A DNA stretch of 64,000 nt. Origin: Colius striatus (lineage: Eukaryota; Chordata; Aves; Coliiformes; Coliidae). Where the stretch lies: positions 5,340,513-5,404,512 of the forward strand of contig NC_084781.1 of assembly GCF_028858725.1 (NCBI RefSeq). Direction: 5' to 3'. Below the pieces are notes generated by a model. It had not been told where the DNA came from. It worked only from the letters and a program-made list of their open reading frames with translations, and did not search any database. Positions 1-60,303 of this stretch are shown here, in pieces. Position 1 is the stretch's first letter; every line of letters starts with the position of its first letter. Made by a program: the position numbers and the translations under genes.

Positions 1-17982
<17,982 letters not shown>

Positions 17983-28838: not shown

Positions 28839-28912
28839 CCTTTTTACCTGGCTGTGTGGCTAGTGATTGTTACTTTTGGCAATCAGCTAACTACACTGCC
28901 TAGTAACTAGGC
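28839..28912 (-). ncRNA. MIR34C: miR-34c precursor hairpin
   Basis: Reading the minus strand, 28879-28901 is the mature 5p sequence AGGCAGTGTAGTTAGCTGAT plus TGC. The 3p arm at 28847-28868 reads AATCACTAGCCACACAGCCA plus GG, differing by about one base from the vertebrate sequence I recall. The arms pair around a short loop, and the flanks (CCTAGTTACT and CCAGGTAAAAAG) match the vertebrate precursor. miR-34 family members share the GGCAGTG seed, are p53 targets and are needed for multiciliogenesis. The linkage upstream of BTG4 and next to LAYN is as in mammals. Confidence 0.97.
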
Positions 28913-29468
28913 TGATGTAAGAGACGGTTCCCTTTCAACACCTTCTTTGATGAAGACTGGAGTTTTGTTAAAAAGTCCTCTTAGAGTAGGTTCTAGCACT
29001 ATTGTTTTCTCCATTATTTTCTGAAGGGAAATGGTCAAAGTAAAAAACATTTATAGCATACTCTGAGTTTGACATTTAACCATTGCTCAAAATCCCCTTC
29101 ATTTAATAGCTTCTTGAATAAGACATGAAAGCTAAATGAAAATTACTTTCCCAATACCTATCAGATAAAGGTACAAGCAAATCAATCTTGGTGCATAAAG
29201 AATTAAGTATATAGTAAGTATAATAAGTGGCTAAACAATTTAAACACAACAGACAGCATTCTTGCTCCAGGAAAGTTCCTGAGGATTTTGGCACCAACTT
29301 CAAGGGATACGAGATTTTACTTGCTATTGCCAACATATACCATTCATTTCTGTGGGATAGCTAAAAATATGGAAATAAAGCTGTAAATGAATCATTTTTT
29401 CAGTAAGGATAAGGATGTCACAAGGAAGCTTTGCAGTAGTTTTCTGTACTGAGGTAACAGGGAATCCT

Positions 29469-29552
29469 GTGCCTTGTTTTGATGGCAGTGAAGTTAGTGA
29501 TTGTGAAGCAATGTATACAATCAGCTAACTACACTGCCTACAAACCAAGCAC
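29469..29552 (-). ncRNA. MIR34B: miR-34b precursor hairpin
   Basis: On the minus strand, 29518-29540 reads TAGGCAGTGTAGTTAGCTGA plus TTG (5p), and 29482-29503 gives the 3p arm CAATCACTAACTTCACTGCC plus AT. The flanks GTGCTTGGTTTG and AAAACAAGGCAC pair at the stem base as in other vertebrates, and the 84-nt length fits. The 5p sequence is closer to miR-34c than human miR-34b is, having GTAGTTAGC rather than GTCATTAGC. It lies about 0.6 kb upstream of miR-34c on the same strand, so the two are probably processed from one transcript. Confidence 0.97.
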
Positions 29553-35330: not shown

Positions 35331-35331
35331 A

Positions 35332-35386
35332 CACCTGAATGTTGTTAACACTCCTCAGAGCCACATGGGTTTCTGCTCTATATAAA
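35332..35386 (+). promoter_or_regulatory. BTG4 TATA box with upstream E-boxes
   Basis: TATATAAA lies at 35379-35386, preceded by E-boxes CACATG (35362-35367) and CACCTG (35332-35337). There is no CpG island. Oocyte genes driven by FIGLA use CANNTG sites close to the TATA box, so this layout fits the oocyte-restricted expression known for BTG4. The assignment is inferred from position; transcription should start near 35.41 kb. Confidence 0.6.
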
Positions 35387-35409
35387 CCCTAAGCAAGCTA
35401 TGCTAGAGG

Positions 35410-35554
35410 AAGAGTGAAGGGGATTTTGGGTGATGGGGTTTTCACTGCCTTTGTAAGTGATAGAGGTTCTTGTAGTTCTTAGTCTCTCTTGGTTGCTCTT
35501 TGAAGCAGTCTATAAAGTACATCTCAGGTATTTTCAACAACTGCAGTCTGCAAA
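35410..35554 (+). other. BTG4: Probable BTG4 5'-UTR exon
   Basis: Between the TATA box and a good donor (CTGCAAAG|GTAATG, GT at 35555-35556) lies a likely untranslated first exon. It would splice to the acceptor CCCAACAG at 35893-35894, 29 bp before the BTG4 start codon. The 5' boundary is only an estimate from the TATA position. Confidence 0.5.
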
Positions 35555-35923
35555 GGTAATGTTTGTAGCCTTCATTTTGTACAAAAGAGTTATGTAACTG
35601 TAAGAGCTGCTGATTGATGTCTGTAGTGTGTTAGTGATGTGTAATAAGGAGTGTTATCTTTTAAATGTTTTTCTTCTTAAATATTCTCTTAACTGGCTGT
35701 GAGTTCCTTCTAGCAACACATCAAATTGATTTCACTACTCAAAATTTACTGGACTGGCAATTGTGTTTATCTAGGTTCTGTCTGTCATGGCTTGTGCAGG
35801 GTTTGTAATATCTGTCCTTGGAGCTTGATAGTACCTTAATGTTATTGATTCTCAGTAATGTAGTGTCTCATCTCTACTGATTATTGCCCAACAGCTAAAG
35901 CACCCTGTGCTCTTCAACTTAAA

Positions 35924-37498
35924 ATGAAAGAGGAAATTGCTGCTGCAGTCTTCTTCATCACAAGGCTAGTGAAGAGGGAAGACAAGTTGAGCAAGCGTAA
36001 AATAGAGAAATTTGCAGCTAAGCTGACAACAATACTGTTTGAAAAGTATAAGAATCACTGGTACTTGGACAATCCATCCAGAGGACAAGCCTTCAGGTAG
36101 CAGGCTACTTTGTAGAAGGGGAGGGCGAAAGGGAGCCTTTGCATGATACTCAAGATGCAATGAATACCTTTTCACTGTCTGGAGCCCTTCAACTGGAAGT
36201 GGCACAAAACTGAAAGAACCACTTGTCTCTCTCTTCAAATTCAGGAACAAAGTGTTATTAACTAGTAAAGAGATACCTATTTTGAAAGCAGTGTCACAGT
36301 TTGTGCATGTGTATGGCTAGAGAGTTAAGGTGGAAATTGAAGGACAATGTGTGTGATGTCTTGAGCAGCCCTCTGACTTCTTGAATGAAGAATTCAAGTC
36401 ATCTTTAACTTGTGGAATTCTTGTAATGGCTTAATTCTCTTAATTACTGATAACATGAGTTGTTGCATTATGGGTTTAAAAAATCAGTCTTGTTTGGTGT
36501 TATAAATCAGCTTGTCAGGCTAATTTGCTGGTTAGGATTATGAGTGAGAACTTACGAGAGAGTAAATAGTGAGCTGAAGTGTACTTCTGTAAGAGCAGAT
36601 CTTGTAAAGTTGTAGAGAAATCTTAACCCACCTGCATTTTATCCTTACCTAGGTGTATAAGGATAAACAAACATCAAGCAAGAGATCCACTGCTGGAGCA
36701 AGCTTGTGTGGAGAGTAATGTGGACTTCAATAACCTTGGCTTGCCAAAGGAAATGACACTGTGGGTTGATCCATTTGAGGTGTGTTGCAGGTGAGTTGAA
36801 ACCGTGGCTTCCATGTTAAGTGTCTTGTATCAACTTTATCAACTCCAAGCCCACTGCTAGAGTCTTAGCATCTGAGACTGTACCTCCTTCCTAGTATAGG
36901 ATGGCTACTAACACATGCCCATAGTGCTAGTGCAGAGCTGCATGATACAAATACAGTCACTTTCAGATATGGTGAAAAGAACCGACCCTTCACAATTGCG
37001 CACTTTGAAGGAGAGGAGAACCCAGAGCTTCCTCAGCAGATCAGCTATGCTGTTGACAGGGCAGCACTAGACTATCATTCGGGCATCTCTTCAGATGAGG
37101 AGAGCTTCCATAAAGAGCCAAAAGCTATCCCTACTGTCAGCAATCCTAACAGTGTCTACCAGGTAAGGATGTGGTGATTTTATGTGGTTTTCAGTAAGAA
37201 CCAGCTTCTGCCCTCTAGGTTCCTTCATGAAGGAATGTAATAGCCTTAACAACTGATGACTGGCCTAATCTTCTCTTTTACCCAAGCACTCCTTATCATG
37301 GTCTTATTTCTTGCTGTTTAGTTAAGTGACTACTGCAAGGCACCCATACAGCCCTGGTCTCAGTATCTTCATAGGAAGACCTTTATGATTGATGGCTCTT
37401 CCTATGCCCAGCACAAGGGTTATAAAGCCTACCGGCCAGCTGCCGCTTTCACAGGACTGCGTGTTGATAGATACCACTGGATCAATACCAAGCGCTAG
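35924..37498 (+). CDS. BTG4: BTG4, BTG/Tob family, complete, four coding exons
   Basis: BTG4 bridges the CCR4-NOT deadenylase (via CNOT7/8) to translating mRNA through eIF4E and drives clearance of maternal transcripts at the egg-to-embryo transition. Exons 35924-36096, 36653-36790, 36967-37162 and 37322-37498 join in phase and encode 227 residues (human 223 as I recall). The BTG domain fills roughly residues 1-125: start [17 protein letters not shown], box A region [20 protein letters not shown] and [19 protein letters not shown], then [18 protein letters not shown] and box [21 protein letters not shown]. The acidic linker and the C-terminal tail ([13 protein letters not shown] ... GYKAYRPA) also follow the mammalian protein. 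The gene is divergent from the miR-34b/c unit, about 6 kb away, and converges with the large unnamed gene. Confidence 0.97.
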
Positions 37499-37730
37499 AG
37501 CTGTGCCTGCATGTGTTCTAGGCTGTTGAAACACTGAGCTGTGGTATGAGATGAAGACTGGCACTGCTAAGATCCTTAAAAATTGAAAGCACTGACTATT
37601 TCCTCTCTTACTTTGTTTATCTGAAACTTTGGATTTTATTGTATACATTTTAATGTTTTATTGATATTAATATAAGATGGAAAATTAATGTGAGACTCCA
37701 CTTGTAAGTTAAAAAGGAAATATATATATC

Positions 37731-38889: not shown

Positions 38890-38895
38890 TTTATT
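38890..38895 (-). terminator. Candidate poly(A) signal of the large minus-strand gene
   Basis: AATAAA on the minus strand, only about 30 nt past the predicted stop codon (38925-38927). A functional site here would give a very short 3' UTR; a later signal cannot be excluded. Confidence 0.45.
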
Positions 38896-38924: not shown

Positions 38925-41900
38925 TCATTCCTGTGAGTCAGAAGCAGCGTTTCCAACTAATTGTATAGGGCTGATCCTTTCTGAATGTGAAGTGGGCAGA
39001 ACAAGTGATGCTATTGAAGCTGAAGCAGTTTCCTGACTTGCTTCAGTCTTTAATGTCTCTGAATGAGCAGCAGATGCTTTCAAAGTGTTCCTTGATGAGT
39101 AACCTGTAGAAGAAACATGAGAGACTCTATTTACTCCTGAATTTTTAGAGTTTAGGTGTAGTCAAACCCTACTACACGTGTCTTAGACTTCTTTTTTTTT
39201 CCTTAACCCTACTGTATTCAGTAGAAGTCAGTTAAACTAACAGTGTTCCTGGCTGTAGGGAAACTAAATGACCTTTCAAGAAGTCATTTATCAGTCTCTT
39301 CTAGTTCTATGTCCACAAAAGAGTGTTTTCTATTTTTTTTTAACAAAAAAGTGTGTTTTATCAAAAGTTCACTGAGAATTGTCTTGATCTGGATATAAGA
39401 ATTCTGAAAGTCTGTTCATGTTGCTTCTTGAGAAGGGAAACCTGTTTTATACCACTGCTTCCTTTTCAACTGCAAATCAACTTCAACAGCAGATACACTT
39501 TAACTCAACAGAATCTTCTTGCTTGTGATTCAGACAGTCACTTCCATTGTAGAATTTGTCTCAAGAATAATTGTGTAGATGGAAACAAACCCTAAGGACA
39601 TACCAATCAATTAATGTTTTGCTGCAGACTGATAACCTAGGAGGTGCCTGCAGTTGATATAGGAACTCCCCAGAGTATTAATTTGGAGGAAAAGAGATGG
39701 AAAATGCACATCTTTCTACTCTGGTTCATTTAATTTTTGTTACTATCTCCAATCCTACTTTACTAGAGTGAAAATAAAACTGATGATTTCCTCCATCTTC
39801 TTGAACTGAAAATAAAATGATAATCCTACTCTTAATTATGCTGGAAATAGTCAAGTTGCACAAGCTAAAATATTGTTACTGAAATGAAAATCAATACTGC
39901 CTCAAAAAAAAGCCCAAAAGCTTTTTAATTCTGTGTGTCTCAATTATTTTAATGCAGTCTCACTGTATAAATAGCCACTAATAAGTTCTAAAGTGCTGAT
40001 GAATCTGCAGGCTTTCCAATTCAGCTAAAATCACCAATGTTTTCAAAAGGAATCAGAGGTGACAGAGAAATGGAAAAAGCAGTAGCTGTATTGCAAAACT
40101 ATTACTTAATTCCTGATGCACTCAAGTACCTGACAGCAATACATGCTCAAAACCAAATCCCCCCATCTCCATTATACATATTTCCTCTGACAGTAAGCAT
40201 GCTGCATTGGTGTTTATCCACTGTATATTTCCAGCAGCCTCCTGAGTGAGTTAGATCTGATAGTAATGAAGACATCCAGTATGAAAAGATCTTTGAAACA
40301 TCAATGATTCACACTGCAGCTGTACAGATAGTTGCCCTAGCAGAGATTGTGGCTCTTCAGAATGAAGAAGGAAATGCATTTTTTTTGCAAGTGGTACTTT
40401 TGCTGGGACATCATCAGAGGAACTTCCTTAGAAATTCCACCATGCTTTTTGTTTCTAGGCTTTCAGAGAAGCATACTTCACAATAACTGTATGTTTCACA
40501 CACTAAAACTTCTTCATCAGTTGAACAGCCTCTGTTTTTCCATCTCCATTTGCTCATAGGTGGCAGGCAGACCTATGCATCAGTAAAATCCTGGTCACAA
40601 TGGCATTTACAATTTTAATATTCTCAAGAGGGGAAGTAAAAGCTTTGCTGTTGATTTCTAGGTTTATACTGTGTTTTTTCTGTTATCAAATTGAGGTTAG
40701 ATTTTTCCATTCTGCAGGAGCTGCAAGACTAAAAAAGCTAAATTAATTCAGGTGCATAAACTATGCATTTTCACATTTACAAACATTAATTTCACAGGTA
40801 AACCAGCTCAATGCTGATACACAGAAAATGCAAGAAATCGAGTTCTGTGCAGCCCTTTTCTCAGTCTTCCCTTTGAGTTTTAACCACCTTTCAGCTTCTA
40901 ACATATTAGTTTAATGAAGTCGCAGTTGTGGGAGTATTGTAAGTGTAGAGAAAGACATTAATTGTTTTGCAAAGTATATATTAACCTTTGTGAGGCCTGG
41001 CAGGAGAAATTTTGAGCCTTACAAATTATTTCAGGGCTGATCCCACTTTGCAGCAAGTTTACACAAATGATAAAGGGTTTGCTCATTAAGTCTCAGGAAA
41101 TCTTGAATTCTTACAAAGTGAAATGGAAATCTGTTCTCAGCTTCCAGATGGGAGAAGCTCTTTGATGATTTTCAAAGTTGAAAGATCCAAACAACATGTT
41201 GTTTAAGGCTAGAATAAAATATGATAACTGATAGAACCTTTATCTTCTCTCTTACCTGATGTCTCATGTGATGTACTACTTTTGCTATTTTTTTCCATCA
41301 TCTGAACTAAACACTTGAGTAGGATCAGGGTTTTTTGGATGACCTTGTAAGTACCATGTGAGGTCCCACTAATGCCATAAAATCTGGTTGTCTGATAGTT
41401 TTCAAAGCACTGTTGTGACCCAGAGAAAAGCACCTGAAACAGCACAAAGCAGACAAAGACCATTTCATGTCTGTCAAAAATAAAACTGGAAAAAAAGTGT
41501 ATACATTCTTTACCTTCTCATGAAAAATTGTGTTCTAATGATCCTATCTCATTTGGACTAACAAGCTTGAAATTAGATAATAGTGATGGTCTCATGGACA
41601 GAGAGTGGTGAACTTTAAAGGAAGGACTCTGAAGAAAGGGGAAGAGGCTTAGGGAAGTGCAATCATCTTTTTATTGTAAGTGATCCAAAATGGAATGTGG
41701 AAACCAATTGATGCAAAGAGTAGGGATCAGGTACTGAGACCATGGAATGAATGGAAAGTGTAGGGTCTGCAGTTCTTGAGAAGCTTTGAAATTTGGAAGG
41801 TCCCTTTAAGAGAGTGAGACTTGTGGTTCTTTGCACTCAAGCAGTTTTGAAAATCATTTTGCATCCAGAAAAAAATTCACAATAGTTGTGGGATGCCTAA

Positions 41901-43720
41901 TGTCTTGCTTCTTCCCTAGGAAGTGCAGAACCTCAGGTGTCTGTCTGTTTAAAATCTCCCTCCAAAAAGACAAATTGGCAGCTTTGCAGTTGGACTGGAT
42001 AATTGTTGAAGTTCCCTTCCATGTGAACTACACTATGCTATCGTAGCCTTTTTTCTAACTCTGTGGTTGAAAAACTGCATTTCAAAGTCAAATCTGATTG
42101 AATTTGAAAGTCTTTGGTATGTACATTATGAAACAACATTTTCAGTTTTCATTTCAGTGTTTTGTTATTTTATAGGGCTCTGATTTCCTGTAGCAGTGTT
42201 CTTGGATGGATATTCCCAGAACATGGCAGCTGCTCTTGCTTTTCTTAGATGTTAATGAACTTGATTGTGTTTTAGTTGCCTTAAGGTGAAGTCAGTACCT
42301 TTGCCTGCTGTGTTTGGATATTTGACAAGTCTCTCAAGTATTCCAGTTTGGTGTATGCAGTCTCCACACTAGCTTGATGTTTGAGTATACACTCCTGAGA
42401 CTCGGAGGCTAGGGCATGTATGACCTAGAAGAAATGAAACAAAATATGAACTTGCTTCAAGTGAATTGCAAATCCTAACTTTTGTTTGTGACCTCACCTT
42501 TCTGAGTTTCAGATTTGTTACTGTCTCAGTACTTGAGATGTGGCTCCTTTGCTTTTCTCTCTCTAGCAGCTGCATGTATGTTCGTTCTTCTTCTAGTTGC
42601 ATCTTTTTAATGAACTCCATCAGCTTCTCCAGTGCCTTTCTGACCTCTGACAGAATGTGTATTTCCTGTTCTTTTTCATCTCCATCAGCTATAAACAGCA
42701 AGTAATAGCAGTAGCACCCATGTGATAATCTACTGGAAATTCACATAAAAATGCTCAAGTAATATGCCTTCTCAGTGTGCTGCACAGCATCACATTCTTG
42801 ATCTTACAGAATAGCCCTATTTTCAGATCCTACCTATGTATTGTCCCGCTTCAAGAGGCCGTAAGTAGTTTGTAAGGCTGAAGCTAACTTGTCAGAGGGA
42901 GCAAACATAACAGAAAATTATGTATAGCCCTGTCTCCCTCTGTTCTGTTTGGAGCTGCCCTTTTGTACCTTTGAATAGCAAGGACAACTCGGTGGCCAGC
43001 TGGCTACTAAAATATTTTGAGGTTCGTCTCTCAGCTTCGTGCAGGGAGGATCCCTTCAGAAAACGACACATTTCCTCAATGTCTTTCACTTTTTCCTTGT
43101 ATTTTATCTGTAAGAAATGGAAGAGGAGAGAGAGTTTTCAATAATGTTGCACACTTGTGAGAGAGTGACCTGTTGTGATACTGTTTGATAGATGAGAGCA
43201 AGAAGTTGGCTAATCTGGTTATTGCTTTTGCCTCGCCTTTTAATTATTCTGCTTGTGTAGAAAGTAACTGCAAACCTGCTGTTGCTGATACCACTATGAG
43301 TTGTGCTGTCCTTGCCACCTGTAGACACATGCTGAATCTGAACAGTTTGTTATTCTGTTGGGACATCTGACACTGTTCTCTTCTGCTGGGAAAGGTTATG
43401 CATCTCCATTTACATTTGTGGTTTACACCATACTGGGTAGGGAAGTGACTTGGGTCCAGAACACCACTCTACTGGGTGTAGCACTGGTGATATTTGGATT
43501 TGATACCTGTAACCAAGATTTCCTTAAGGAAATTCTGAAGAATTTTCTTAAAGCCAGCTGCAAAAAGAATGCACCATACCTTCTGTGCCTTTCCTTCTTT
43601 TGCAGCATCAAGGACATGAAGAAATAGAGAGTTCAGCTCTTTAAGAAGGTCTTCTTCCTGATTTCTTCTGCAATACCAGTATTTATGTCTTGCATTTATT
43701 TCCTTTTCCAGAAAGTCCAG
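38925..43720 (-). other. C-terminal coiled-coil exons and serine-rich tail
   Basis: Exons 43580-43720, 42969-43107, 42498-42688, 42299-42424, 41256-41433 and 38925-39103. They encode LDFLEKEINARHKYWYCRRN, KYKEKVKDIEEMCRFLKG and a long charged helix DGDEKEQEIHILSEVRKALE...KKMQLEEERTYMQLLEREKQ, consistent with coiled coil. The last exon is Ser/Thr/Ala-rich (NTLKASAAHSETLKTEASQE) and ends VGNAASDSQE. A 2.15-kb intron (39104-41255) precedes the terminal exon and shows nothing else recognisable. Confidence 0.7.
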
Positions 43721-46700
43721 CTGTAAAGCAATGACAGACATAATAGTTCAGGTTTGCAGGAAGCTGAAAGAAAATGATAAACTTAATTGAAGCTAGTGAT
43801 GAAATCTCCATCCAATGTTTTTCACAGGATATACTCAGTTTTGCTGCCACAGGGGATGCATGCTTTGCAGTCCTAAATCTGTGCATGTTATAATTCATGG
43901 CCAAATGCAAAATGAATTTTGGAGTAGAGGAAGGATACGAGATAGAAGGTACAAAGATCAGCAGAAGAACATACAAATAGAAGAGAGAGAAACGGCAGGT
44001 GATGAAAAGAGGAGAGGTAAGTAAAATGTCATACATATATTCCAGTGTATCTTGTACCATAAGAAAATACTACTTGAGGGGCATAAAAAGAAGGGGAATT
44101 TCCTCTCAGTAAAGGAAAAGCACCAGCAAAGTATTTCCCACAGATATCAAAACCTGTAAGTAAAGATAGTTTGCTGGAGTTATTATTACCAGATCTGGAT
44201 CTGTAGCTCTTCTTGGCAAAGCTCCAAGAGACTGAACAGTAGGAATTACATTGTGAGTCCAGGAATTGATTTGAGCACCTATAACAGGCCCAATTTCACC
44301 TGTAATTGGACTTATGGTTCTGGTACCAATGGTGATGGGAACAAGGCCTGTGGATAAAGAAAACCTGAGTTTAGTGCTTAGAATTTAGCACATCGATTCC
44401 AGCTTTTATGAACATTCTGAATGAAATAGACACTCACTCTGAAAATAACACATCCTTATATTTTTGTTGTTTACATCATCCAATGCAATTTCATTCTCTA
44501 CCTTTTCCATTTCTGTCTTCCATGGTTCCTGCAAGTGGAGAAGGCTGCCTAGTATTCCAGTCACAGTCTATTCCCAAAATTGGCACCATCAAACTGGACC
44601 CACCAGGATCTGGGATTTTCATTCCAAACACTGCAGGGATCCACATCTCTGTGCCAGGATATTTGATTATGCCTAGTTTATTCAAAAAAAGATGAAAAAC
44701 ACGTGCCATTAAATAGTCTTGTGATGAAAAGAGCTGCTTTCACTTTCAGACGCTTAAAATGCTGTTGTTTCTTCTGCAGCTTCCAAATAATAGCTGCCTG
44801 AGTTCTAGAGTAGCTACTTTGACAAAAAAACTTCCTAGAAGTTTGAAGCACTGATGTCTTGGCCAAACCCTGTGGTGGAAATACGTGCATTGCTGTAGCT
44901 TTCAGTGTATTGCCACGTGTTTACTCCATAACACAGACTGGTTGTTTTATACCTACCGAGTTTACCACCGTTACTCTTGAGACTTGAAGCTATTTCCTGC
45001 TTTTTCTCCAGGGTTTGCAAGCAATGTATTGCATGATAAAACCTAGTGGTGAAAGACTTCTTCATATCTTCTACTGAAGCCTTTAGCTCTGCTAACCTGT
45101 CTGCTGCTAGACAGATATCTTCCAAAATTGATGCCTTAAACTGATTTAGAGCATTCACCACATCGGTTTGTGATATCAGCCATTCAGCTTCCAACACTGC
45201 TTGGTAACTTCCACTGTGGGGGAGCACCTTATCTTGCTGGAGATGAACTCCATGTACCCGGGCAAATTTCCCACTCAGAGGTTCAGTGAAGGAATCTCCA
45301 AGAAGCATTAGGTTTCCAGAAGGACCTGCTAGCCCACCTAGAGGTACAACTTCTCCTGTAGTCAGGGAAGAGGAAATGAGAGTCAAAGCATTACCTGGCA
45401 ACTCATTATTACAGTCCAGTCCTTCTCATTCAGAAAGAAGCACAATGATCATTTACTTTGATGGAAGCATGATGGGACCCTTGAGGGAGGAATTTGAGGT
45501 TGTTTAAAAAAGTAATTTGGCTCATGAACTCTTCTCAAAGAAGTCTCCTAGTTTCCACTTTAGAACAAGATTAAAGCCTCCACATCTTTTTTTTGGGGAG
45601 GATCTAGTTTACCTCCTACTGTGAGTCATGAAGGATATGGACATTGAAAATAGGATATAAAGCATTGAAAATGCTTTTTAAAAATCTAGAATTTCAACCT
45701 GCCAAGTCCCTGAATAATTTATTTCATCCAACTTGTAATATTTTAACAGGGCAATTAGACTAAGAGTGAAATCAACTTCAGTAGCTTGTGTCAGAGTTAA
45801 CGAACGATGACCTCAGATGCCTCTCACAGTTTCACTTGATAGCTTTATTGACCCTTAAAACCAGAGCTTTTAAAATAAAACTATAGAAAAATGGAGGTTT
45901 AGTGCCTGTAAAAGCTAAGGTGCACAACTGTTCCACAGTTAGGCAAAGGTGTGAGGCGAACATAAAGACTTTTTAGGCTCATTCTGGTCTGTGCCTCAAG
46001 TCAATTAGGGGCAGGTTAAATGAATGGTGTGTACCGTACTTACTGTATAATGAAGAATCATTCTGAACACTGAATCATTCACCTACCAGTGTTGCTATCC
46101 AGTCCAACTCCGAGTATTGGAACAATTTTGCCTCCCTCTGGCTCAGTCATAGGACCCCCAATCTCCAAAGGAGTCAACATGCCAGTAAGGGGGTTGAGGT
46201 ATGTTCCACCAACAGTCAGCTTTTGCCCAGTGTGAGGATGGATCGTAACCCCCAGCACTGGAACTTCTATTTCTGTCACTGGATCTAGCATGAGTCCTCC
46301 CATACCAAATATTTTTTCAGGACACAGGACTGGAAGTTTTGTCTTCACAGGTAGACCAGTGTTGGGACAAACTGGGTAAGGGATGTAAGGAAATATGGGT
46401 ACCTCAGGCTTATGACGCTTACCTATGTGTAGAAGCAGAAGAAATTTAACATGGTTATGTGAACTAATGCTGATAGCAAGGAAGTATTAAAGTTCAGAAG
46501 GAAGACTATGGAGCTTTCAGAGGATGCTGATAGGGAAAAAAATTTTTGCTTTCTCCATTCCCTTAAAGTTGCAAGATTCTTATCACACAATGGTTTTTAT
46601 AGTTTAATGAACTATAAGGGACTCAAATCTGTCAGAAATGAGGAATACCTCATTACAAGCCTTGTAACAGCTAATACATCTTATCCACAGCAAGTCTTAC

Positions 46701-49700
46701 ATCTATCTGAAGAACAGTATCTTCTAATGCCATATTAATGAAAAGCTTTGTCAGACTTTCTTCAGATTTTGTAAGGCAAAAAGTATGTGCAGACATAACA
46801 AGTTGGGGGGTATTTTTGTATGTGTTTTTTTAAGGTTGTGGGTTTGTTTGTTTCACTCTGTTTTAGCCAGTACCCCCACTACAACTGTACTCCACAAAAA
46901 GGTGTCAATTGGTTATTGTATTGTGGCACTTACCTGAGGCAGAATCAACAGTGCAGACCAGCCTAGAGCTGATGGGATCATAACCAACATTGCCACCTAT
47001 GGGAAGTACCTTTCCAGTCTGGGGATGAAGAAAATGACTGCTAGGTACCGGCCCAGGGCATTGACTGGTCAGCATCATGGTGCAATGGGGGTAGGGGGTT
47101 AACAATCCAGAGACAGGGTCCACACAGACAACATCAGGTGCCTGGGAAGTGCCATTTGAGTCTGAAAGTTTACAATAGACAGGGAGGGGGGAGAAAAAAC
47201 AGCCTGTAAGCATTGCAGAGGTGGGGGGGTGGAGTTGTGTGCAAGGGCAGAGACGGGGTGTCAATAGAGAAACTGATTGATGGGTAAACCTTTCTTCTGA
47301 TAAGCTTTTACAGAAGGTGTTTCTAGGGAAAAGTCTATAGTACCTGGCAATTAGATTATGCATGATATTCACTATACCCAGTCTACATGACTTTCATAAC
47401 AGTGAAGAGACTGATGTTTCATGGATGTTGTTTCAGGGTTTTAGATTTCAATGTCTCAGCCTGCAACATTCCTTGTCCTTTTAAAACTTCTGTTCCTTTT
47501 AGAAGGGTGAAAGAAAGAGGTGTCCTGCTGGTATCAGAATGCCTTTTACATTTTGTCATACCAAAACATGTGACAATATTGGAAAGCTGACAAGCACACA
47601 GGAACAAATTCATGGAACTTATTAGACTTGCCTTACAGGATAGTTCCTTTCCCTCTCTGTTGCTAGGGCATACTTAGTAGTACTCAGTCAAAGATTGTGA
47701 TTAACACAAATCTGACATTTCAATTGAATTTCTAGAGGTTGTAGTTACCCACTAGGTCCTGCTTGGTAAGTGTCCTGCTTTTAGCTTTGTTCAGAAGGTG
47801 TGCTCCCATTCCTTCACCCAGCACTCCCCAAGCTTTGAGGCGGTGACTCTCCTTTACTATTATGCTTGACATCTTGCTGCTTGCAGTCTCTAGCTGGGCT
47901 AAGAAGCTAGAATTGAAGAGATAAAGGTATGACTACTGGATACCTGAAGATAAGGTCAAACAATTTAAAGGGAGTAGTAAAGGAAGAATTTTGATGGACA
48001 CACAAACAGTGTCTGCACTTTGGCAGCTGGAGAACTTGATTAGTATTTGTTCTGGCTAATGCAGTAAAAAAAACACTTTCCCCTTTCTCTGTTTTATCAC
48101 TGATTACACCATCTTGATTCTTCTGATAAGACATATCAGGGCATGGATGGCACACTGATGAGAACTGGTGTGATATCCCAGAGCCAAATCAGTTTGTAGC
48201 ACAAGGACGGACCCTCAAAATATTCTTGTCTGTGAGATAATGATGGGAGTCTCTTCACAATTTATGTCTCTTAGATTTTCTAAGCTTGCTTTACAGAAGT
48301 GTGAAAATTGTGTTCTGCATCAGCTCATCTGGATCAAGAATCAGTTTTCAGCTTCCAGATAGATGTATTGTCAGCCATAAGGCAACCCAATCGCTTCCCA
48401 CAAATGGTTCCTAGCGAGGAAAAGCAAAGTGCAGCATAACTTGGCAGTATGTTACCTTGCAAGCTCTGGCTGAGACAGCATTGTTTGCTTTCCTTCACAA
48501 GCCACCTTATTTGTCAGCATCTCTGCCAGTCTCAGGATCTGTCGCAAGGCAGAATTGAAAGCGACGTGATGCTCTTCCTGACATTTCAGATCATGCTGCA
48601 ATAAGTGCATCTGTTTCGTCACAATTTCCTCGTATTCAGCAGCCAACTGTTTCCTTAGCTGCATCTCTTCTTCTGCCTAGGTGAGAGAGAAGACTCAAAC
48701 AGCCTTTTTTTAAATGTTGGTGTGTTTTGTCTAACTGTAAACAGAGATTGCAACTTTTCTGCCCTTTATCAAAATGGCAAAGATTAGAAATTTAAAATAC
48801 TTTTGATGAGTTCATTTAAATTTGAGCAAACATATGCTGACAACTTTAACATGTGCAATTGCAATTATCTAGCACCTCAGTGACCAGCACATAGCAAGCT
48901 AAGAATTTAGGACATCCTTTTAGCAAGTGATGTAAGTCCTTAAGGAAGAATTAGCTTTTGCAACTGTGCAGTATGTGCACTTCTCTAAGTGTAACAATGA
49001 GCATATTTCAGTTTTCCAGACATGAAATTGTTTCATTCTTAGAATTTCTGTAACAATGTAAACAAGTACAGTTCTGATGTGGGGAAAAAAGAAGTTGCAA
49101 TACATGCTCAAGCAGAGGAATTTATGGTGTTTTCAAAGCTCAAATCTCTGCTACCAAAGCAGAGGAGAGCTCCCAGGGAAGAGATGGGATGTATGGCTGT
49201 ATCAGATCAAGAAAAGAAAAAACATTAGTGCTATTTCAGAGAGACATTTCTGTGTTAGCACAAAGCAACAGCAGCAACTTTAAATGCTTTTAAGACCTAG
49301 TAAAGTTTGCTGTTCACATATATTACAATGTAAGCAGTTTTGCAGCCTATGAAAAATGAAGTGTCTACCGTTCCAAAAGTGAGATTTTACATGCCCATGC
49401 CTAAAATTATGAAAAGATAATACTGAGAATTTAATTTCTTGTTCTGTATTGTTGAATTGAGCTCTACCTGCTGTTTTGCTTTCAAGTAAGCTTCTGTCAC
49501 TGCACTGTCATAAACCTCCATCTCTCCTGGGGTGCTCAGTGTCTCTATCCAAAGGTGTTTTAGTGAAGATATTTCACTGGTAAGCTTGTGATACATAGTT
49601 TTCACCTGAGGTTCCCCAGTAAAAAAACAAAAAACAAAACAAGAACAGAAAATAAAAGAAAATATTCAGTTAGGACTGTAAGAGGTAATTTGGAGATGGT

Positions 49701-52700
49701 GAAGTCTCTCTTCAAAACAGACGCCTTTTTATGCAGTTGAAACACATGCTGGTGTCTGAGCTTTTGACAAGACACATGAATGCCAGTTTGTGTCAGATTA
49801 GGGTAGGATGATTTCTTCCCACTACTCATTTGTTAACCGCATGCTGTAACGCCAGCTCCCTCTGCTGTCCTTCAAACCACAACTGAGGTTAGCTGAGTCC
49901 TGCCGGCAGATTCATTATGAGGACTATGAAATGCTATCCCATTGTTTTAAGACGACAGATTAATATAAAACTCAAATAGCAGAAGGCAACTCCATCTCTG
50001 TTCTACTGTATATTAGTTTACTGATGTTTATTTGTCCTCAATTTAATCTGCAGCTCTCAAGCATTTGACTAGGAAATCCTTTTTTTGTTTTGTTTCATAG
50101 ATGAAAAATTGAAGCTGAAAGATGAAGTTGCTTTCCCAAAGTGATAATAGTTGAGTGCAGAACCATATGAAAACTAAAATGTTCTGCCTTAAGGTGACTA
50201 CTCTTCCCACTGTATTATGGGGTAAAAAATAACCACTTAAGAATATGGGTATGTATTTGTATTTCATGTTCTAAAAAGACAAAAGTTTAAATAAATCACG
50301 TACCTAACAGCCAAAGGCTAAAGAAACTGTTAACAGATAAAATTACACACTTTAGGCTCTTTATACATAAATATGAGTAGCCTCAAAATAGAGTTTACCT
50401 CTTCTTTGAATTGGCCCAGTTTGGTTGTGACAGACAGCGACTGTCTCAGCAAAATTTCAAAGAAAATATCGGTATTAAATGACTCAAGGTCTATCTGTTC
50501 TTCGGGCTTCCAAACATCATCCCTTTTCGGGAAGCATGCTGAAATATGGATATTATTTATTAGTATTTTTTTCAGTTGAGACTGTTGAACTTGGCAGCCA
50601 TTGCATGCCACTAAACAAGGGATTCTTACTCCACTTTATACAAGTAGCCAGGCAGCCACAATGTTGTTTAGCCTTTTTGTTATCTGATCTGTTCCATCAC
50701 TGATGCAAGAGTCATCATGCATGTTACCTTTGTTCTGCAGTGAGGGGTGACATTTTTTAATGGAAAAGACCGTTGATACATTGGAGGAATAAGAGTCCAG
50801 ATTGTACTTCAGCTGCTGTCTTCGATATGGAGGGCAGGTAATGCCTTTCTGTGACCAGCTAAGTTCCTGACAAAGAAGCTGTAAAACACAAGAAAATTAA
50901 ACAACTGAATTCCTTTTCCTATTTTAACATATTCCATTAATGTTATTCACATATTATCCACTCAACATGCAGGATGGATCATTGAGTCTGTTTTCTAATT
51001 ACATCATTAAAGTAATCTGTTCTAAACCAGAAGAATTAGGTATCTCAGCAGATAAGGCTGAAACCAAGGAGAGGGAAGTACAGTTATCTGTTGTTTGCAT
51101 CTGCTGGATGAATAAATTACGTTTTATATCATTATCTCAGTATCCTGGTTGCAGAAAAAGCCTGTTCATTTCAGAACATGCTAGAAACATAAAGGAATGG
51201 CTGTTTAGAGGATTAAGAGCCTGAAGGACCATTTTGGCTTTAAACTGTGAAACAGCACATCTGATCTCAGTTATATTGTGGTCACTGGGACTGTTGCCTG
51301 AATAAGGGGTGCAAAACTGAAGGTCACATGAATGACCATTGAAGAATTGTGTTAATGACTGACAGTTCTTCATAACAGCTTTCCAGGACTTAGCTTCTTT
51401 GTTTTGAGGCAGATGTTAAAGAAAAAATAATTATCATCTCATTGATGACCTCACTCCTTCCTAAAAAGATGTGAGTTGTGAAGAGCTTTCTTATGGTTTG
51501 ATGATATTAATCATAACATAGGAATGGAAGCCACCTATACTGCAGTGTCTCTAAGAGACCTGTGTAATAGGTAAATATACTGGGGCTTTGGTGGTGCTGG
51601 AGCAATTCACAGGGATGAATTTTACCCCATATATAAATCATCATGCTGAGTTTATTCCAATTTTCAACATTATAGATGATGCTTAAGGGATAGCTTGTGA
51701 GTTCAATGGGCAAAATCTTTTATTATCCTCTAAGAAAAATATTGTGTGACTGTTACTTACTGTCAGTACCACAGAGGTGATAAGCAATACAAGAAGTCCT
51801 GCAATTACTCCAGTAATTGCTGTCCAGTCAGGTTTCAGTAGGAGATCTTGTTTTTTTGCAATGCCCACCTGTACAGCATATCTGGGTGTTGTGGGGAAGA
51901 ATGGCCCCTCTTCATAACACTGTCCTCCAGGCGGCATAACCCTGATATACTTAGTGAAGTGAGAATAAATAGAAAGGCCAGTCACTTGTCATTGCATCTC
52001 ATTTACATATGCATGCATATTTAAATATAAAGTGTTATTTTGTCTCACTGAGCCAAAGCTTTGCAGCAGTTGCACCATTTTGCACTCATATATGCAGCAC
52101 AGATGTATGCAAACTCACATACTTGGTGCTGTACTCACTTGTACAGTACGATTCACAAAACTGAAACGATGCTTACTATTATTTGAAACCTTTCCTGTGT
52201 TTCCAGACATTGATATGAAACATGAAAGGCTTTGCTAGGAGGGACACTGTAAATGCAAAAGTAGGGTTTCTTGATACAAACCATTTTTTTATGCCGATTG
52301 CTACTCAGCTGGAGCACATAGGCTCCAGGGTACTGGAACTGGAAAAGGAAGAAGAGGAATTTTTGGGAGGCTTCTCTTACTTCCTCTCTGAGGCTTCGGA
52401 TGTCTCCCCAGTCAAATTCAGTGTTGGTATTGAACAGATTGTTTCTAAAGAGCAAAAGTACACAAGTTAGCATAAGTCTGTGGGAAGCCAAGTTGCAAAG
52501 AGTGTGAGCACAGGTCAGAAACTGCATCAGCAAAACATCAGGAACAGTATGTCTGTATGTATTTCATTGTGCTTATTTTAATGTTATTTTCTTAATGACT
52601 AACATTGTTTCCTATTGTCCCACAATGTCTTACCTGTCAAAAAGACATTGAAGTATGTTTAATAATGAGATTTCTACTCCTCCTACTGATGTTTTCTCTT

Positions 52701-55700
52701 AATTTAATGTAGACAATAGTGAAAACTTCAGCTTTGTTCTTTGTAGCTTATAGGAATGTGCATTAACTAAGTTTTTCTACATTCAGCATTTGTACTTACA
52801 CATCATAAACTGGGTAATGCTCCTTGGAGACAATGAACATGATGATAACGTTAACATTAATGCACGTGGTAGGATTTAAGATGCCAGTAAATATGATTTT
52901 TGATGTGGAGTTTAAAGACCTCAGGCTTTGTTCCTGGAAAGACCTGTTTTCTTCATGGTCAGTTTTAACTGTAAAAGCACAGATCTTGTTAGATTTGGAT
53001 CAATACTGGTCATTTTCTGTATACAGAACAACTACAGGATATAGCATTTCCTTTTCATATCTATGACTAGGCTTTATACAGGCAAATCTGGTTTCCAGAG
53101 TAAGGTTTGCTGTCAAGACAGCATGCAAACACGCCACTGGCATTTTCTTGATGTTGTGTAATTGTGCACCACATTTTCTTGTCTTTTTGCAAAAACTCTG
53201 CTGAGGTACCTCTGCTAAAAAAGCAGCATTTCCTACAAAACTGGCAGCCTTCATAAGGGGTCTGTCCCTGGATGTTTATCATATCTGGCTTGCCTACAGA
53301 TCTGAAGATCTCTCCACAGGCATTAAAGAAAGACTCCCTGTTCTCCAAGAGGAATGCAGGCAGAAGGATTAACAAGGAAGTGATTTGATATGCCAGAACC
53401 TAAGAAGAGGGTGGTGTAGATCAGAACCTAAGAATGGAGCTAAACTGGTACAGGTCCACTAAGCTAAAGGAGAGATGTGTGAGGAAATGACAGAGCTCAT
53501 CTCTAGTAATTGCTCTGGTGTCTCTCCTCCCTGCACACTGTGGGCTTGGTGGTGTGCTAGGCTGTGTGCACACACAGCACGTCACTTGCTCCCTGAGGGA
53601 AAGGCCAGCTCTGGTGGGAAGCAGTCTGTGGACCGGTGGATTCGAGCTGTGGCTGCAGAGAAGGTAAAGCTTTTTGTTTGATTTCCTAATACTTAGAGTG
53701 AACAGCTGCTCCAGAAATTTTAAGACTGTGAGATCTGTTTGATTTAACTATTGTTATTTCCTGGGGATGATTGATATGACAAAACACAATGAAAGCTTAG
53801 AGAAGCTGTATTAAATCCATGCTTTGGAGCTCTAGGAGAACTTACCTGGAGCTGTTGCTGAAGAAGGTCTGTGTTTGAGATGCGATGAAGCCTCATTTAA
53901 CATGATGAAGTTGTGAATTAGTTCTGGGTCAGGATTATACACACCTAAAAATCCTTTCCCTGAAGTAGTATAAAAAGCATCAGTCATTTCTGGTTTTCTG
54001 TATGTTGGACTTTGCTTTTCCTTCTAGTTTATAGAGTATCTGTTCATCAAGTAAGACTTACAAAGTCTTACTCGAGGCCTTTGGGGTTTGCTTGGTGTTG
54101 CAACGCCTGTTCCTTAAGTAGCAATTGATTTAACCTGGCTGAAGTCAATGAAACTGCAAAGCTATTATGGGCAAATGTTTCCATCCTATTGTTATTACTA
54201 AATGTTCATGTGATTGTGTGAATAGTGCTTTTGGCCTATGGCTTGGTTCTGGAATTGGGGGAAAAAAAATGTTTAGCTGTCTCTAATTCTACTTGGTAAA
54301 TCACATTAAAATCTGAGAGAAAAATCTGTACAGATAAAGGACCTGATAAGGAAGAGATATGTGCCAGCTCTGTTTATTATAATTTAAGAGATAGGAGAAA
54401 ATGTCTGTATATCTGTCCTTTCTTGTAATATTGTAAATGTACAGATTTCAGAGGAGTGTTCTGGGATTGAGTGGAATTAATTTTGTATGGAGTGAGGAAT
54501 TGGCACTGCTGCATGCTATCAGGATATAAGCATCAAGATCTCTTATTGTGTTATATCATGGAAAGGTCTGTTGTGTATAAAAACCAGTTAATACCCAGAT
54601 AATACTATAGTTATTCTTTCCCTTACCACTCATTTTCACGATGAATGTTGGGTGGATGTGTTTGCTTTGTTCTGAAGTGCATACGTCTTTTAAAGAGAAG
54701 TATGGTCGTAGTAGAACTGCTCTTAATTCTTCTAAGAAAACAGCAGTCTGATAGAAGAAGAGTTCAGATTTTTTTTACATGAGTTTGTTATACAGTTGCT
54801 ATGTAAGACCAGGCACAAAAGTACACTGTGCATATAACAGAATAGTGTCAGGAGGGGTTTTTGGTTGCTTTCTATAATTTTATAAGAAAAAACAAACAAG
54901 AATGTTCTTGGTCAAAAGGTTACTAAAAGTCTAGCAAAAACAGATAGACTGTGAAAATAACTGTAGCTTTTACCTTGCTGCCATTTCTGTGAGTGATAAA
55001 AAGCTGAGCATTTCTCTCTGTACAAGCAACCTGCAGAGTATCTCTTTGTTGTCTTCTACACTGAAAATTACACACACTTTCCAGACTGTCAGTTTGACAA
55101 AGGCAGAGGCCAAGAACCTTGTCATAGCCTTGATAGTCTCTGGGGACAGTACAAACCTGCAGGAGGAAAACAAGTAGCAGCATGAGTAATATCCAGGTGT
55201 TTCTTAAGTGAGGAAGGAAATCTGGGCTTCCTATTTCAGGTTGAAGAAGAGGCAAAGCATCCTGTGACAACACTAATAACACTTAGTTGCCATGCTGTCT
55301 GTGCCTTCTGAAGAAAGAGCTTGGGAGTTTGCTTTAAGGACAGGTTTTGCAAGGTCTTTGGGTTTAATTAATGCTAAAATTGAAATACCTTCTCTGAGCA
55401 ATAATGAACCCATCCTTTCTTGGTCAAACACCGTCCTTCTTGATTTCGGGATGCTGAATCTCGACAAATGTCATATGCTTGTCTGACACAGTGTCTTCCA
55501 TCACCTAAGGACCTCCTGTAACCTGGGGGACAGGTGCAGTGAGCATCACGGGGCTGGAAAAAAACCCAGGTATTTGTTTAGGAACCTGCAATCTCATGCA
55601 GATACTGTTCTGTACCTTGCTACATTACGCATTACACCTTATCTGACCAAGGTCAGATGTCCATCCACATCCAGTTTTACCTTACAGTAAAGGAGAAGGA

Positions 55701-56644
55701 TTGATGTAGCCCTGAGGAAACTCAGAACATAGGTAGGTCTGGTGTCCCCATCCCTCTCCCTGTGGTTCTGTGTAATTGGAAATGAGGTGTAAGACTGATG
55801 CTTGTCAATACTAAAGAGAGAGGGACTGAATAAGACAGTGCAGGTGAGGTAAAGACAATGAGGAACAACGCATGAAGCAGTGCTAATGTGTGTCAGAACT
55901 GAACAGCATTTGCAGGACTGCTCCTGTACCTGAAACACCTGTCCTTTCCCAAGGCAGATGCATTTCTCTTGCCCTTCTGCAGGCTGCACTGCTTCTGAGC
56001 CACATGGAAGACATGCTCTTTGGCCAGGCATGGGATTAAAGAAGTCCACTGGACACATCAAGCAGTCATGCAGTGTCAGTGCTGCTCCTTCTGAGCGAAA
56101 AGTTCCTGGTGGACACGGAACTGGTGTCGTGCTTCCATCTGGGCAGAAAAAGCCTTTGAACAACATAGAAATTGTCAATATTTCATGCATAAACCCAGCT
56201 ATACTTTGTAGATAGATGAGTCTTTCCAGTTTAAAAATTGTAGCTTAATTATATCACACCATCAGTTAAATGAATCCTGCTTCAATACAAATATTCCCCC
56301 ATTTCAATATTGTTTTGCTATGTAGTATAGAAAGGAAGGCTTCTGATATGCAAATCTTATTAGAGTAAAATTGAATGCTCTATACTTGTTGTTTAAGCTT
56401 TTCAGCAAGCCAAATGGTTTATCTAAGAGCTCCTGTAGCATTCAGCAAAAGTCAAGTCTGACTGGGTTTTTATAGAGTAGTACATGACTGAGAAGCATTC
56501 TAAAGAATCTGCTAATCTCTGATAAATTGTCTATAAATACCTGCTGGACACATTGGTGAATTCTGTTCTTTTCTTTTGCAGTAAATTCCACTCTGGCATT
56601 CCTCATCACTTGAAAGTTGTAGGTCCCCATTGTCACAAGGCAAC
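38925..56644 (-). CDS. Large uncharacterised single-pass membrane protein with TG-repeat cytoplasmic tail (5' incomplete)
   Basis: Not identified by name. Twenty-five exons, in transcript order: 56541-56644, 55930-56153, 55389-55553, 54974-55156, 54627-54747, 53846-53959, 52800-52968, 52282-52444, 51761-51949, 50728-50878, 50399-50538, 49468-49605, 48456-48676, 47749-47906, 46934-47161, 46087-46422, 44957-45355, 44502-44672, 44190-44347, 43580-43720, 42969-43107, 42498-42688, 42299-42424, 41256-41433, 38925-39103. All have GT/AG sites and matching phases, giving 4,486 nt with TGA at 38925-38927. The order is cysteine-rich ectodomain (about 1-455), membrane helix (about 456-478), then about 1,015 residues predicted cytosolic. 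From memory, this layout resembles large unnamed proteins predicted in fish and marine invertebrates under an ephrin-receptor-like domain label; I could not search. The true N-terminus and signal peptide are missing. The donor GTTTGT after 52282 is weak. Function unknown. Confidence 0.88.
44190..47161 (-). other. TG/LGV/GG repeat block on phase-1 exons
   Basis: Five consecutive exons encode a degenerate repeat of the form LGV-x-x-HP-x-TG-x-x-x-x-V/I-GG. Copies include FLHPQTGKVLPIGG, VPVLGVTIHPHTGQKLTVGG, LNPLTGMLTPLEIGG, VPILGVGLDSNTGEVVPLGG, VPILGIDCDWNT and TISPITGEIGPVIGA. The exons 46934-47161, 46087-46422, 44957-45355 and 44502-44672 are all symmetric phase 1-1 (228, 336, 399, 171 nt); three of the four introns between consecutive block exons fall at or next to a glycine codon in the repeat region. 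Exon 44957-45355 also carries a helical segment (LNQFKASILEDICLAADRLA). The repeat slightly recalls plakin-type DPxTG motifs but I do not equate them. Confidence 0.7.
47749..50878 (-). other. Juxtamembrane and helical cytoplasmic exons
   Basis: Five exons (50728-50878, 50399-50538, 49468-49605, 48456-48676, 47749-47906). They encode KRDDVWKPEEQIDLESFNTD, a predicted helical stretch FFEILLRQSLSVTTKLGQFK, then VKTMYHKLTSEISSLKHLWI, and a likely coiled coil AEEEMQLRKQLAAEYEEIVT...MHLLQHDLKCQEEH...LRLAEMLTNKV. The last exon ends in KSRTLTKQDLV before the repeat block. No catalytic motif recognised. Confidence 0.65.
51761..51949 (-). other. Transmembrane exon of the uncharacterised gene
   Basis: This 63-codon exon starts YIRVMPPGGQCYEEGPFF, continues GIAKKQDLLLKPDW, and ends in the hydrophobic run AITGVIAGLLVLLITSVVLT. 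That is a clear single-pass helix, extended by LLC from the next exon. The cysteine-rich modules lie upstream and the coiled-coil/TG-repeat region downstream, so a type I orientation is inferred. Confidence 0.88.
52282..56644 (-). other. Ectodomain exons: GCC2/GCC3-type and EGF-like cysteine-rich modules
   Basis: Exon 1 seen (56541-56644) reads LPCDNG...SSDEECQSGIYC...MCPAG and joins to GFFCPDGSTTPVPCPPGTF, the hallmark of ephrin-receptor-like GCC2/GCC3 repeats. Next come CLMCPVDFFNPMPGQRACLP and CICLGKGQVFQ, then HCTCPPGYRRSLGDGRHC (EGF-like), CRDSASRNQEGRC, and LCLCQTDSLESVCNFQCRR. The membrane-proximal part has few cysteines: FTGILNPTTCINVNVIIMF, EHYPVYDVNNLFNTN, then FQYPGAYVLQLSSNRHKKM. 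NGS and NST sequons are present (RNGSK, LNSTSK). Exon 54974-55156 happens to be open in a second frame, but the cysteine spacing and phase favour the frame given. Confidence 0.75.
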
Positions 56645-57386
56645 CTTGAAAAAATAGAGAAAATAAAGAGGAAAAGGGCCATTTATCTGTCACACTGAGT
56701 AGCTTGAATTGCCAAATGTAGTAGGTAGCAGACACTCATAAGGAGAGCTTTCCTTTTGGCTGATGAATATTTAATAGTTAGTGAAAGTTAAAACATGCTA
56801 ATGTATGGGTGTGAAATATTCATGGGGGTTATTTGAGCCTATTGTATTCACTCACAGGTCATATCACAGAAATTGTACTCTGTCCAACCTAAAACATTCA
56901 CATATGAAAAGTGATTGTTGCAGCACTTCAAAGGGATTTATGACTATAGACAATTTGCTGCTGCCCTTTGGAATCTGAAGTTTTCAGGGTCCTTACAGCA
57001 GCTGTGATTTTCCAGTCTATGGATCCTCATTTCCCATAAGCTAGCATCAGTTGGCATGGGATATGCTGGGTTTTGCTGCATGGTTTATGATGAGCATAAA
57101 CAAACTAACAAACTGTTAAGCAATTGGTGTCTTTTCGGTGTTTTCTGTAGGAAATGTAGTTATTGGTGGCGGCTTTGCACTCTTGGTTGGCAATATCCGT
57201 GTCAGATCCTAGAATGAAGTTGGGGGACTCGCTTGCGAATGCTCTCCCCTTCTTTCCGTCTTTGTAAGGAGGTTTAAAACCGACAAAGCCAGCAAGCAGT
57301 GATCCAGCAAGCCAGGCTTCTGCGCTGCCAGGCGAGCGGGTTCTCTCGGCAGAGGGCAGCCTGGGGCCGGGCAGCGAATGCCGCTC

Positions 57387-57454
57387 GCCAGCGCCCGGCT
57401 TGTGCCAGCGCCCGGCTTGTGCCAGAGCCCGGCTTGTGCCAGCGCTCGGCAAGC
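57387..57454 (+). repeat. 17-bp tandem repeat in a CpG-rich patch
   Basis: GCCAGCGCCCGGCTTGT is repeated about four times (57387-57403, 57404-57420, 57421-57437, and a diverged copy at 57438-57454). It sits in a small GC/CpG-rich patch at about 57.22-57.49 kb amid AT-rich flanks. The patch lies just upstream, in minus-strand terms, of the first exon that joins the large gene in phase, so it could be a promoter; no start codon exon with matching phase was found in it. Confidence 0.8.
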
Positions 57455-57683
57455 GCCAGGAGGCGAACTGCGGTGGTCCCGTCCTCGCTTTGGCGTGAAA
57501 TGCCTTGTGCCCTTCTCGATGTGCGCAAGGAAGTGATAAACCTCTCTATGTCACATAAAAAACAGAGTGTCCAAGTGTAATGAGATGCAGGTAAAGTGAG
57601 TTCGTGTTCAACACTGGTTGGTGTTTGTGGCCAACTTCTGAAACCTTTGCCCTTGTAATTAAAGGACTACCCCAGCCCCTTAC

Positions 57684-57942
57684 CTGCATGTGTCATGAAG
57701 GAGGTATCATAAATCCAGCAGAGACTTCGATTTTCTTGTGAAGTATACAATCAAATATTCAAGAGCATTTCTGGATGACATTTCACACTGCTTTCCTCTA
57801 TTCACACCTTCTGTGTTTAAGATCTTTAATATATCATCTAGTTCAAAGAGCTGTAGTTGGATGAACTTTTCTAGGGACACAATAAATGAGTAGTTTCCCA
57901 ATATATTTTGAATGGCAGTCATTATTCCACCAGTTAGTCAGC
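57684..57942 (-). pseudogene. Candidate upstream exon of the large gene with in-frame TGA
   Basis: The minus strand shows two possible acceptors (exon start 57942 or 57870) and a strong donor (CATGCAG|GTAAGG, exon end 57684). In the frame that joins exon 56541-56644, it reads ILGNYSFIVSLEKFIQLQLF...DDILKILN...EYLIVYFTRKSKSLLDL, then a TGA at 57707-57709, then YLLHDTC running into RLPCDNG. The sequence is convincingly protein-like on both sides of the stop. Using the longer start would add another TGA at 57938-57940. Either the exon has decayed, is not used, or is read another way. Confidence 0.4.
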
Positions 57943-59419: not shown

Positions 59420-60303
59420 CTAAAGGACAGAAAAAAGAGGGGGAGGTTAAGTACAAGCAGCTCTCGTTTCTCTGTTTAATTTTTAAAGATGGAAAAATTA
59501 TCAGGCTATTGAATAAATAGTCTCTAAGAGCACTATATTATTGAACACAGAAATTGGAGATTTCACACCTTCTCAAATAGCTCCTGAAGAGAACAAAGCA
59601 GTCTCTTGCTGTTCTTCTCTGGTATGGAGCTTGTAAATCCTCCCTGATACACATGCAGTTTTTTAACTCATGTAATTATTTTGATTAGGAGTGTAGGTTT
59701 TTCTTCCCCTCACTGAACTTAATCACTGGCCTTTTCAGTCAGTTTCATGTTACAAAACTCACATTATCATTACCTATTTTTCTTACTGGCCACTAGGGTT
59801 TGAGAATTAGCTGTTATTTTACTTACATGATATCTGACTAGGTAAATACAATGTGTTTGTAAGGCTCATCATTAGTAAAAGCAGACAAACAAAATTTTGG
59901 TCCTATTTCTCTGTAAAATTAAACAAACATTTCTAAACAAAGGGAAGGCTCTGTCCACGTAGCCACAGGTGGTGTATGTTCTTCTGCAAATATTTGATCA
60001 ACCTACTTCATAGTTATACTATGTCTTTATTTTTTCCACATAAACTTTATTCTCCACATAATGTTTACAGTAGCCTTTGACCCTTCTAAAGAAGCCCAAT
60101 TACCTTTAGATAATACTTGGTTTACAGTTCCCTGGGTTTTCTGAAGAGAAGCTTATGCAAATGCTGAAATAGCTTTAAAGACTTCCAGGGAAAGGCTGGG
60201 CTGTGACATTTGGCTAGAAACCAAGGCAATTTTTATGTTTTTTGGTGACACTACCCATAAGTGACCCTCAGCAGACTAATTACTCTAAAAACATGCCACT
60301 TAC

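Follow-up and report, generated by a model that had tools for sequence, protein, structure and literature searches.

A 25-exon gene beside BTG4 in Colius striatus, predicted to encode a single-pass membrane protein with a long, repeat-bearing tail

The DNA studied here (the window) is a 64,000-nucleotide stretch of contig NC_084781.1, positions 5,340,513 to 5,404,512, from the Colius striatus assembly GCF_028858725.1. On its minus strand, beside BTG4, lies a genuine protein-coding gene, referred to below as the long gene. An initial annotation had joined 25 exons of this gene by hand with consistent phase, and a rebuild of the chain by script gave the same picture: 25 exons, 24 introns of 73 to 2,152 bases, all GT-AG and consistent in phase, and 1,494 open codons plus a stop, with the 3' end at 38925. 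The chosen frame has no stop before the terminal one, whereas the other two frames of the joined chain contain 92 and 81. The exons and two flanking features are listed here with their support in brackets, where "chain" is the rebuilt series of exons, "chainer" is a program described below that assembled exons without knowledge of that series, and "heptad scan" and "repeat profile" are analyses of the predicted tail.

56541..56682, minus strand: exon 1, ATG-started and signal-peptide-like (MALFLFIFSIFSRLPC), or else an internal exon whose first base is 56644 (predicted start)
55930..56153, minus strand: exon 2, Ephrin_rec_like cysteine repeats (chain, Pfam)
55389..55553, minus strand: exon 3, cEGF-like stretch below the Pfam cut-off (chain, Pfam)
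54974..55156, minus strand: exon 4, cysteine-rich ectodomain (chain)
54627..54747, minus strand: exon 5, ectodomain (chain, chainer)
53846..53959, minus strand: exon 6, ectodomain (chain, chainer)
52800..52968, minus strand: exon 7, ectodomain (chain, chainer)
52282..52444, minus strand: exon 8, membrane-proximal ectodomain, with a weak donor (chain, site strength)
51761..51949, minus strand: exon 9, juxtamembrane region and single transmembrane helix (~470-492, extending into exon 10) (chain, hydrophobicity, chainer)
50728..50878, minus strand: exon 10, cytoplasmic juxtamembrane region (chain, chainer)
50399..50538, minus strand: exon 11, helical segment 1 (chain)
49468..49605, minus strand: exon 12, helical segment 1 (chain, heptad scan; missed by chainer)
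48456..48676, minus strand: exon 13, helical segment 1 (chain, heptad scan, chainer)
47749..47906, minus strand: exon 14, end of helical segment 1 (chain; missed by chainer)
46934..47161, minus strand: exon 15, start of beta-repeat segment 1 (chain, repeat profile)
46087..46422, minus strand: exon 16, core of beta-repeat segment 1 (chain, repeat profile, chainer)
44957..45355, minus strand: exon 17, end of beta-repeat segment 1 and helical segment 2 (chain, repeat, heptad scan, chainer)
44502..44672, minus strand: exon 18, beta-repeat segment 2 (chain, repeat profile)
44190..44347, minus strand: exon 19, beta-repeat segment 2 (chain, repeat profile)
43580..43720, minus strand: exon 20, helical segment 3 (chain, heptad scan, chainer)
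42969..43107, minus strand: exon 21, helical segment 3 (chain, chainer)
42498..42688, minus strand: exon 22, helical segment 3 (chain, heptad scan)
42299..42424, minus strand: exon 23, helical segment 3 (chain, heptad scan; only overlapped by chainer)
41256..41433, minus strand: exon 24, end of helical segment 3 (chain)
38925..39103, minus strand: exon 25, serine/threonine-rich C-terminus and stop (chain; terminal exons are not modeled by chainer)
38890..38895, minus strand: polyadenylation signal AATAAA, beginning 29 bases past the stop
57101..57700, no strand assigned: CpG-island-like stretch and possible promoter, 0.4-1.0 kb upstream of exon 1, assigned to the long gene by position

The splice sites of the chain ranked high among all GT/AG sites on the strand, with median percentiles of the 96th for donors and the 97th for acceptors; the weakest donor and acceptor stood at the 79th and 75th percentiles. 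The splice weight matrices behind these ranks, like the codon tables used below, were not trained on C. striatus. A gene finder based on human codon usage recovered just four exons exactly and fused the long gene with the neighboring LAYN-like gene, and phase chaining was therefore used instead. The chainer is a dynamic-programming routine that works only from splice weights, open frames and phase; it covered the range 56760-38860 and was blind to the annotated exons. When site weights were included, the minus strand reached 1006 and the plus strand 148, and 20 order-3 Markov shuffles gave 170-493. An earlier version run with three parameter sets, all without site weights, scored 419, 823 and 494, the shuffles reaching at most 228, 347 and 195, respectively.

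Half of the chainer's 22 exons were identical to annotated ones (exons 3, 5, 6, 7, 9, 10, 13, 16, 17, 20 and 21), and seven more had one boundary in common (exons 1, 4, 15, 18, 19, 22 and 24). Of the remaining four, three overlapped exons 2, 8 and 11 without a common boundary and one was intronic. The chainer did not recover exons 12 and 14, for exon 23 it gave no more than an overlap, and its model did not cover the terminal exon 25. The coding statistics of the chain point in the same direction. In amino-acid composition the 25 exons exceeded 164 open AG-GT pseudo-exons from elsewhere (p = 3e-5, where the pseudo-exons overlap one another and occupy 57 distinct bins). The codon test was only mildly positive, as the chosen frame was the best per codon in just 14 of the 25 exons (p = 0.016), with summed codon scores of 151.9 bits for that frame versus 66.4 and 55.7 for the other two. 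The G+C content by codon position was 0.518, 0.403 and 0.415.

At the 5' end, an in-frame ATG at 56682 with a TAA directly upstream gives a coding sequence of 4,524 bases, or 1,507 residues plus a stop, whose N-terminus is signal-peptide-like. The initial annotation had instead placed the upper limit of the gene at 56644, and this position is indeed the first base following a CAAG acceptor. The bases that code for MALFLFIFSIFSRLPC also form a pyrimidine tract ending in that CAAG, and the acceptor score at 56644 (4.7) is the best nearby; because the same bases fit both, signal peptide and splice acceptor are indistinguishable by sequence. A search for a signal-peptide exon farther upstream, made with a single phase assumed and a threshold on donors, returned one poor candidate (59569-59654), and two internal upstream exon candidates were equally poor.

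The predicted protein has the domain order that was first claimed for it, a cysteine-rich ectodomain, one membrane helix and a tail of ~1,000 residues made up of helical and TG/LGV/GG-repeat segments. Residues ~16-438 contain 27 cysteines. The Ephrin_rec_like model reached 23.6 bits, compared with a Pfam cut-off of 23.1, in three stretches, and did so only when the first 177 residues were scanned alone. There is a single strong hydrophobic stretch, with the membrane helix at ~470-492 and the best 19-residue window at 475-493, and we infer a type I single-pass topology. Just outside the membrane, a FDWG...YPGAYV pattern was seen by eye that resembles cupredoxin strands; the membrane-proximal piece had no match to a cupredoxin model in Pfam at E up to 10, and its three matches in PDB (E 0.38-1.7) were to unrelated proteins. 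The whole protein had no match in PDB at E up to 1. The Pfam scans matched no kinase, SAM, ephrin-binding, death-domain, TNFR or other enzyme or signaling domain, and matches below cut-off to Dickkopf_N, EGF_3, PH_PLEKHM2, Lsm_C, CymA and Arteri_GP4 were judged to be chance.

The tail was divided by composition and by proline-free, heptad-rich runs into five segments: helical (~541-745), beta-repeat (746-1000), helical (1000-1082), beta-repeat (1083-1188) and helical (1189-~1440). The heptad-rich runs lie at residues 568-609, 619-680, 704-734, 1004-1065, 1286-1326, 1347-1394 and 1450-1482, as found by a crude script and not a standard coiled-coil program. The repeat unit is ~16 residues long with the pattern xxxxPxTGxxVPxxG. 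Residues 885-952, which cross the join of exons 16 and 17, align without gaps to residues 1106-1173, which cross the join of exons 18 and 19, with 21 of 68 positions identical and a score of 85, compared with a highest score of 57 in 40 shuffled proteins. This internal repeat lends the joins independent support. Each of the four joins from 15/16 to 18/19 is in phase 1 and splits a glycine codon, the pattern that exon-wise duplication would leave; phase-1 introns favor glycine codons generally.

A profile of the repeat identified seven two-unit copies (39-54 bits), all within exons 15-19 in the joined frame, and its best score elsewhere in a six-frame scan was 8.8 bits; as the profile was built from those same units, only this exclusiveness is informative. 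The tail repeat had no match in Pfam or PDB. No plakin model was among the Pfam matches of two repeat pieces at E up to 10, a repeat piece searched against PDB had no match, and the seven PDB matches of the repeat profile (E 0.16-2.4) were to unrelated proteins.

The surroundings of the long gene in the window comprise the following features.

4413-4619, minus strand: SIK2-type kinase exon (named by Pfam domain and synteny)
22943-24230, minus strand: LAYN-like gene, C-type lectin exons (named by Pfam domain and synteny)
28842-28908, minus strand: mir-34 precursor (63.8 bits)
29476-29546, minus strand: mir-34 precursor (73.1 bits; the plus strand also scores)
35924-37499, plus strand: BTG4, tail to tail with the long gene

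The mir-34 pair lies upstream of BTG4 and is divergent from it, which is the usual vertebrate arrangement. In mammals HOATZ sits between LAYN and BTG4; one crude pattern found no HOATZ-like motif in the corresponding interval (26700-35900). The long gene had been placed between BTG4 and the POU2AF genes. The BTG4 side of this placement is borne out, while the other side is taken from general synteny; a motif search of the window found no POU2AF gene.

The structure of the gene, its segment order and the internal duplication are observed. As to function, we favor, tentatively and as something short of probable, a type I single-pass protein of ~1,507 residues serving as a tether or scaffold between the membrane and the cell interior. 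The cysteine-rich, Ephrin_rec_like-bearing outside would bind an extracellular partner or one on a neighboring cell, and the single helix would anchor the protein in the membrane. Inside, the 1,000-residue tail may pair through its heptad-rich helices, and the two blocks of short beta-type repeats, which stem from block duplication, could act as rigid spacers or offer docking surfaces to a partner in the cytoskeleton or cilium. It is doubtful, in our estimation, that the repeat is in addition an undescribed cytoplasmic beta-repeat alternating with coiled-coil rods in an ancient, mammal-lost family of receptor-like membrane-to-cytoskeleton linkers.

Among known proteins, the plakins, such as desmoplakin and plectin, offer a parallel. 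These have a long rod and repeats with a DPxTG-like turn, and a role in linking membrane to cytoskeleton that is only proposed for the protein here. However, the Pfam plakin-repeat model was unmatched, the protein here has its own transmembrane helix, and its repeat units are ~16 residues without intervening helices, compared with ~38 residues with helices in plakins.

Several observations weigh against the tether or scaffold. Such a role would be guessed by default for any large membrane protein that is not an enzyme. The Ephrin_rec_like score in the whole-protein scan was 21.4, under the cut-off of 23.1, and cEGF was under its Pfam cut-off in both whole-protein and piece scans. The cysteine count of the ectodomain is odd, such that the gene model may lack an exon or hold a wrong one. 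AlphaFold2 gave no usable fold, with a mean predicted local distance difference test score of 33.3 for exon 16 alone and 40.6 for a five-exon alignment. Lastly, a loose pattern found no RFX-type motif in the several kilobases around the putative promoter, and a cilium is not indicated.

A signaling receptor is an unlikely alternative to the tether, and one that shares its topology. In that case a ligand on the cysteine-rich ectodomain would cluster the tail and the repeats would recruit effectors, in the manner of an Eph or TNF receptor without a kinase or death domain. The Ephrin_rec_like similarity, borderline in score, and the single pass favor this; the Eph receptor tyrosine kinases have Ephrin_rec_like cysteine repeats and a single pass. 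However, the kinase, SAM and ephrin-binding domains of that family, and the death-domain and other signaling domains, were unmatched in Pfam, as were the cysteine-rich modules of the TNF receptor superfamily, and the length and rod-like form of the tail are unusual for such a role.

Of similarly low probability is a protein specific to the cilium or sperm, which would be a ciliary form of the tether, connecting the membrane of the cilium with inner structures. Next to the gene lie the mir-34 pair and BTG4, mir-34b/c serves multiciliated cells, and ciliated tissue had been suggested for the gene at the outset; yet a neighbor's function is weak evidence, and the loose pattern found no RFX-like motif around the putative promoter. 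We consider it very improbable that the gene is decaying in C. striatus, with its frames still open and its expression gone. The weak splice sites of exons 8 and 18, the odd cysteine count and the two exons missed by the chainer would fit with decay, but 1,494 codons without a frameshift or stop, 24 canonical introns and a polyadenylation signal and CpG-island-like stretch in the right places do not. Finally, a chance assembly of open stretches in non-coding DNA has next to no probability, since, despite exons picked by eye, a mildly positive codon test and the failed human-codon gene finder, the chainer's score of 1006 stands well above the maximum of 493 in 20 shuffles and the 148 of the opposite strand, and a 68-residue internal repeat crosses the hand-made joins.

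The gene family is probably listed without a name in sequence databases or automatic annotation. Databases presumably hold unnamed animal proteins of this layout, for example under PANTHER 'gene 32742-related'. These GCC2/GCC3 (Ephrin_rec_like) long-tail animal proteins presumably share the cysteine-rich ectodomain, the one helix and a long uncharacterized tail. The ELAPOR/KIAA1324-type proteins have a GCC2/GCC3-like cysteine-rich outside and a single helix, but are set apart by their short tail, compared with ~1,000 residues here. As expected, relatives were confirmed neither in prokaryote genomes (none of 61 pattern stretches) nor in viral contigs (none of one stretch), and plasmids and phages yielded none. 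Literature searches found no paper on the long gene, judged by listings; a paper search on names for the long-tail family found none on the family by title and start of abstract, and a term search of the main text of PMC5577775 met no mention of BTG4, LAYN or POU2AF1.

Provided that orthologues occur in birds, fish and invertebrates and are missing from mammals, the gene would encode a large conserved membrane protein beyond the biology of human and mouse. The tail repeat is the part without a match here, and Pfam holds no such repeat. A named gene model with segment boundaries is directly testable in chick or zebrafish, and should the gene prove to be merely annotated but unnamed, the value lies in the cleaner description of the tail.

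Two further features lie upstream of exon 1. A 258-base segment on the minus strand (57685-57942) has a strong acceptor (5.7), the strongest donor of the region (8.1) and a 71-residue ATG-started open reading frame (57707-57922) with no match in Pfam; read from the bases, the segment is out of frame with exon 1. Within the CpG-island-like stretch, positions 57387-57450 consist of 3.8 copies of a 17-base G+C-rich unit.

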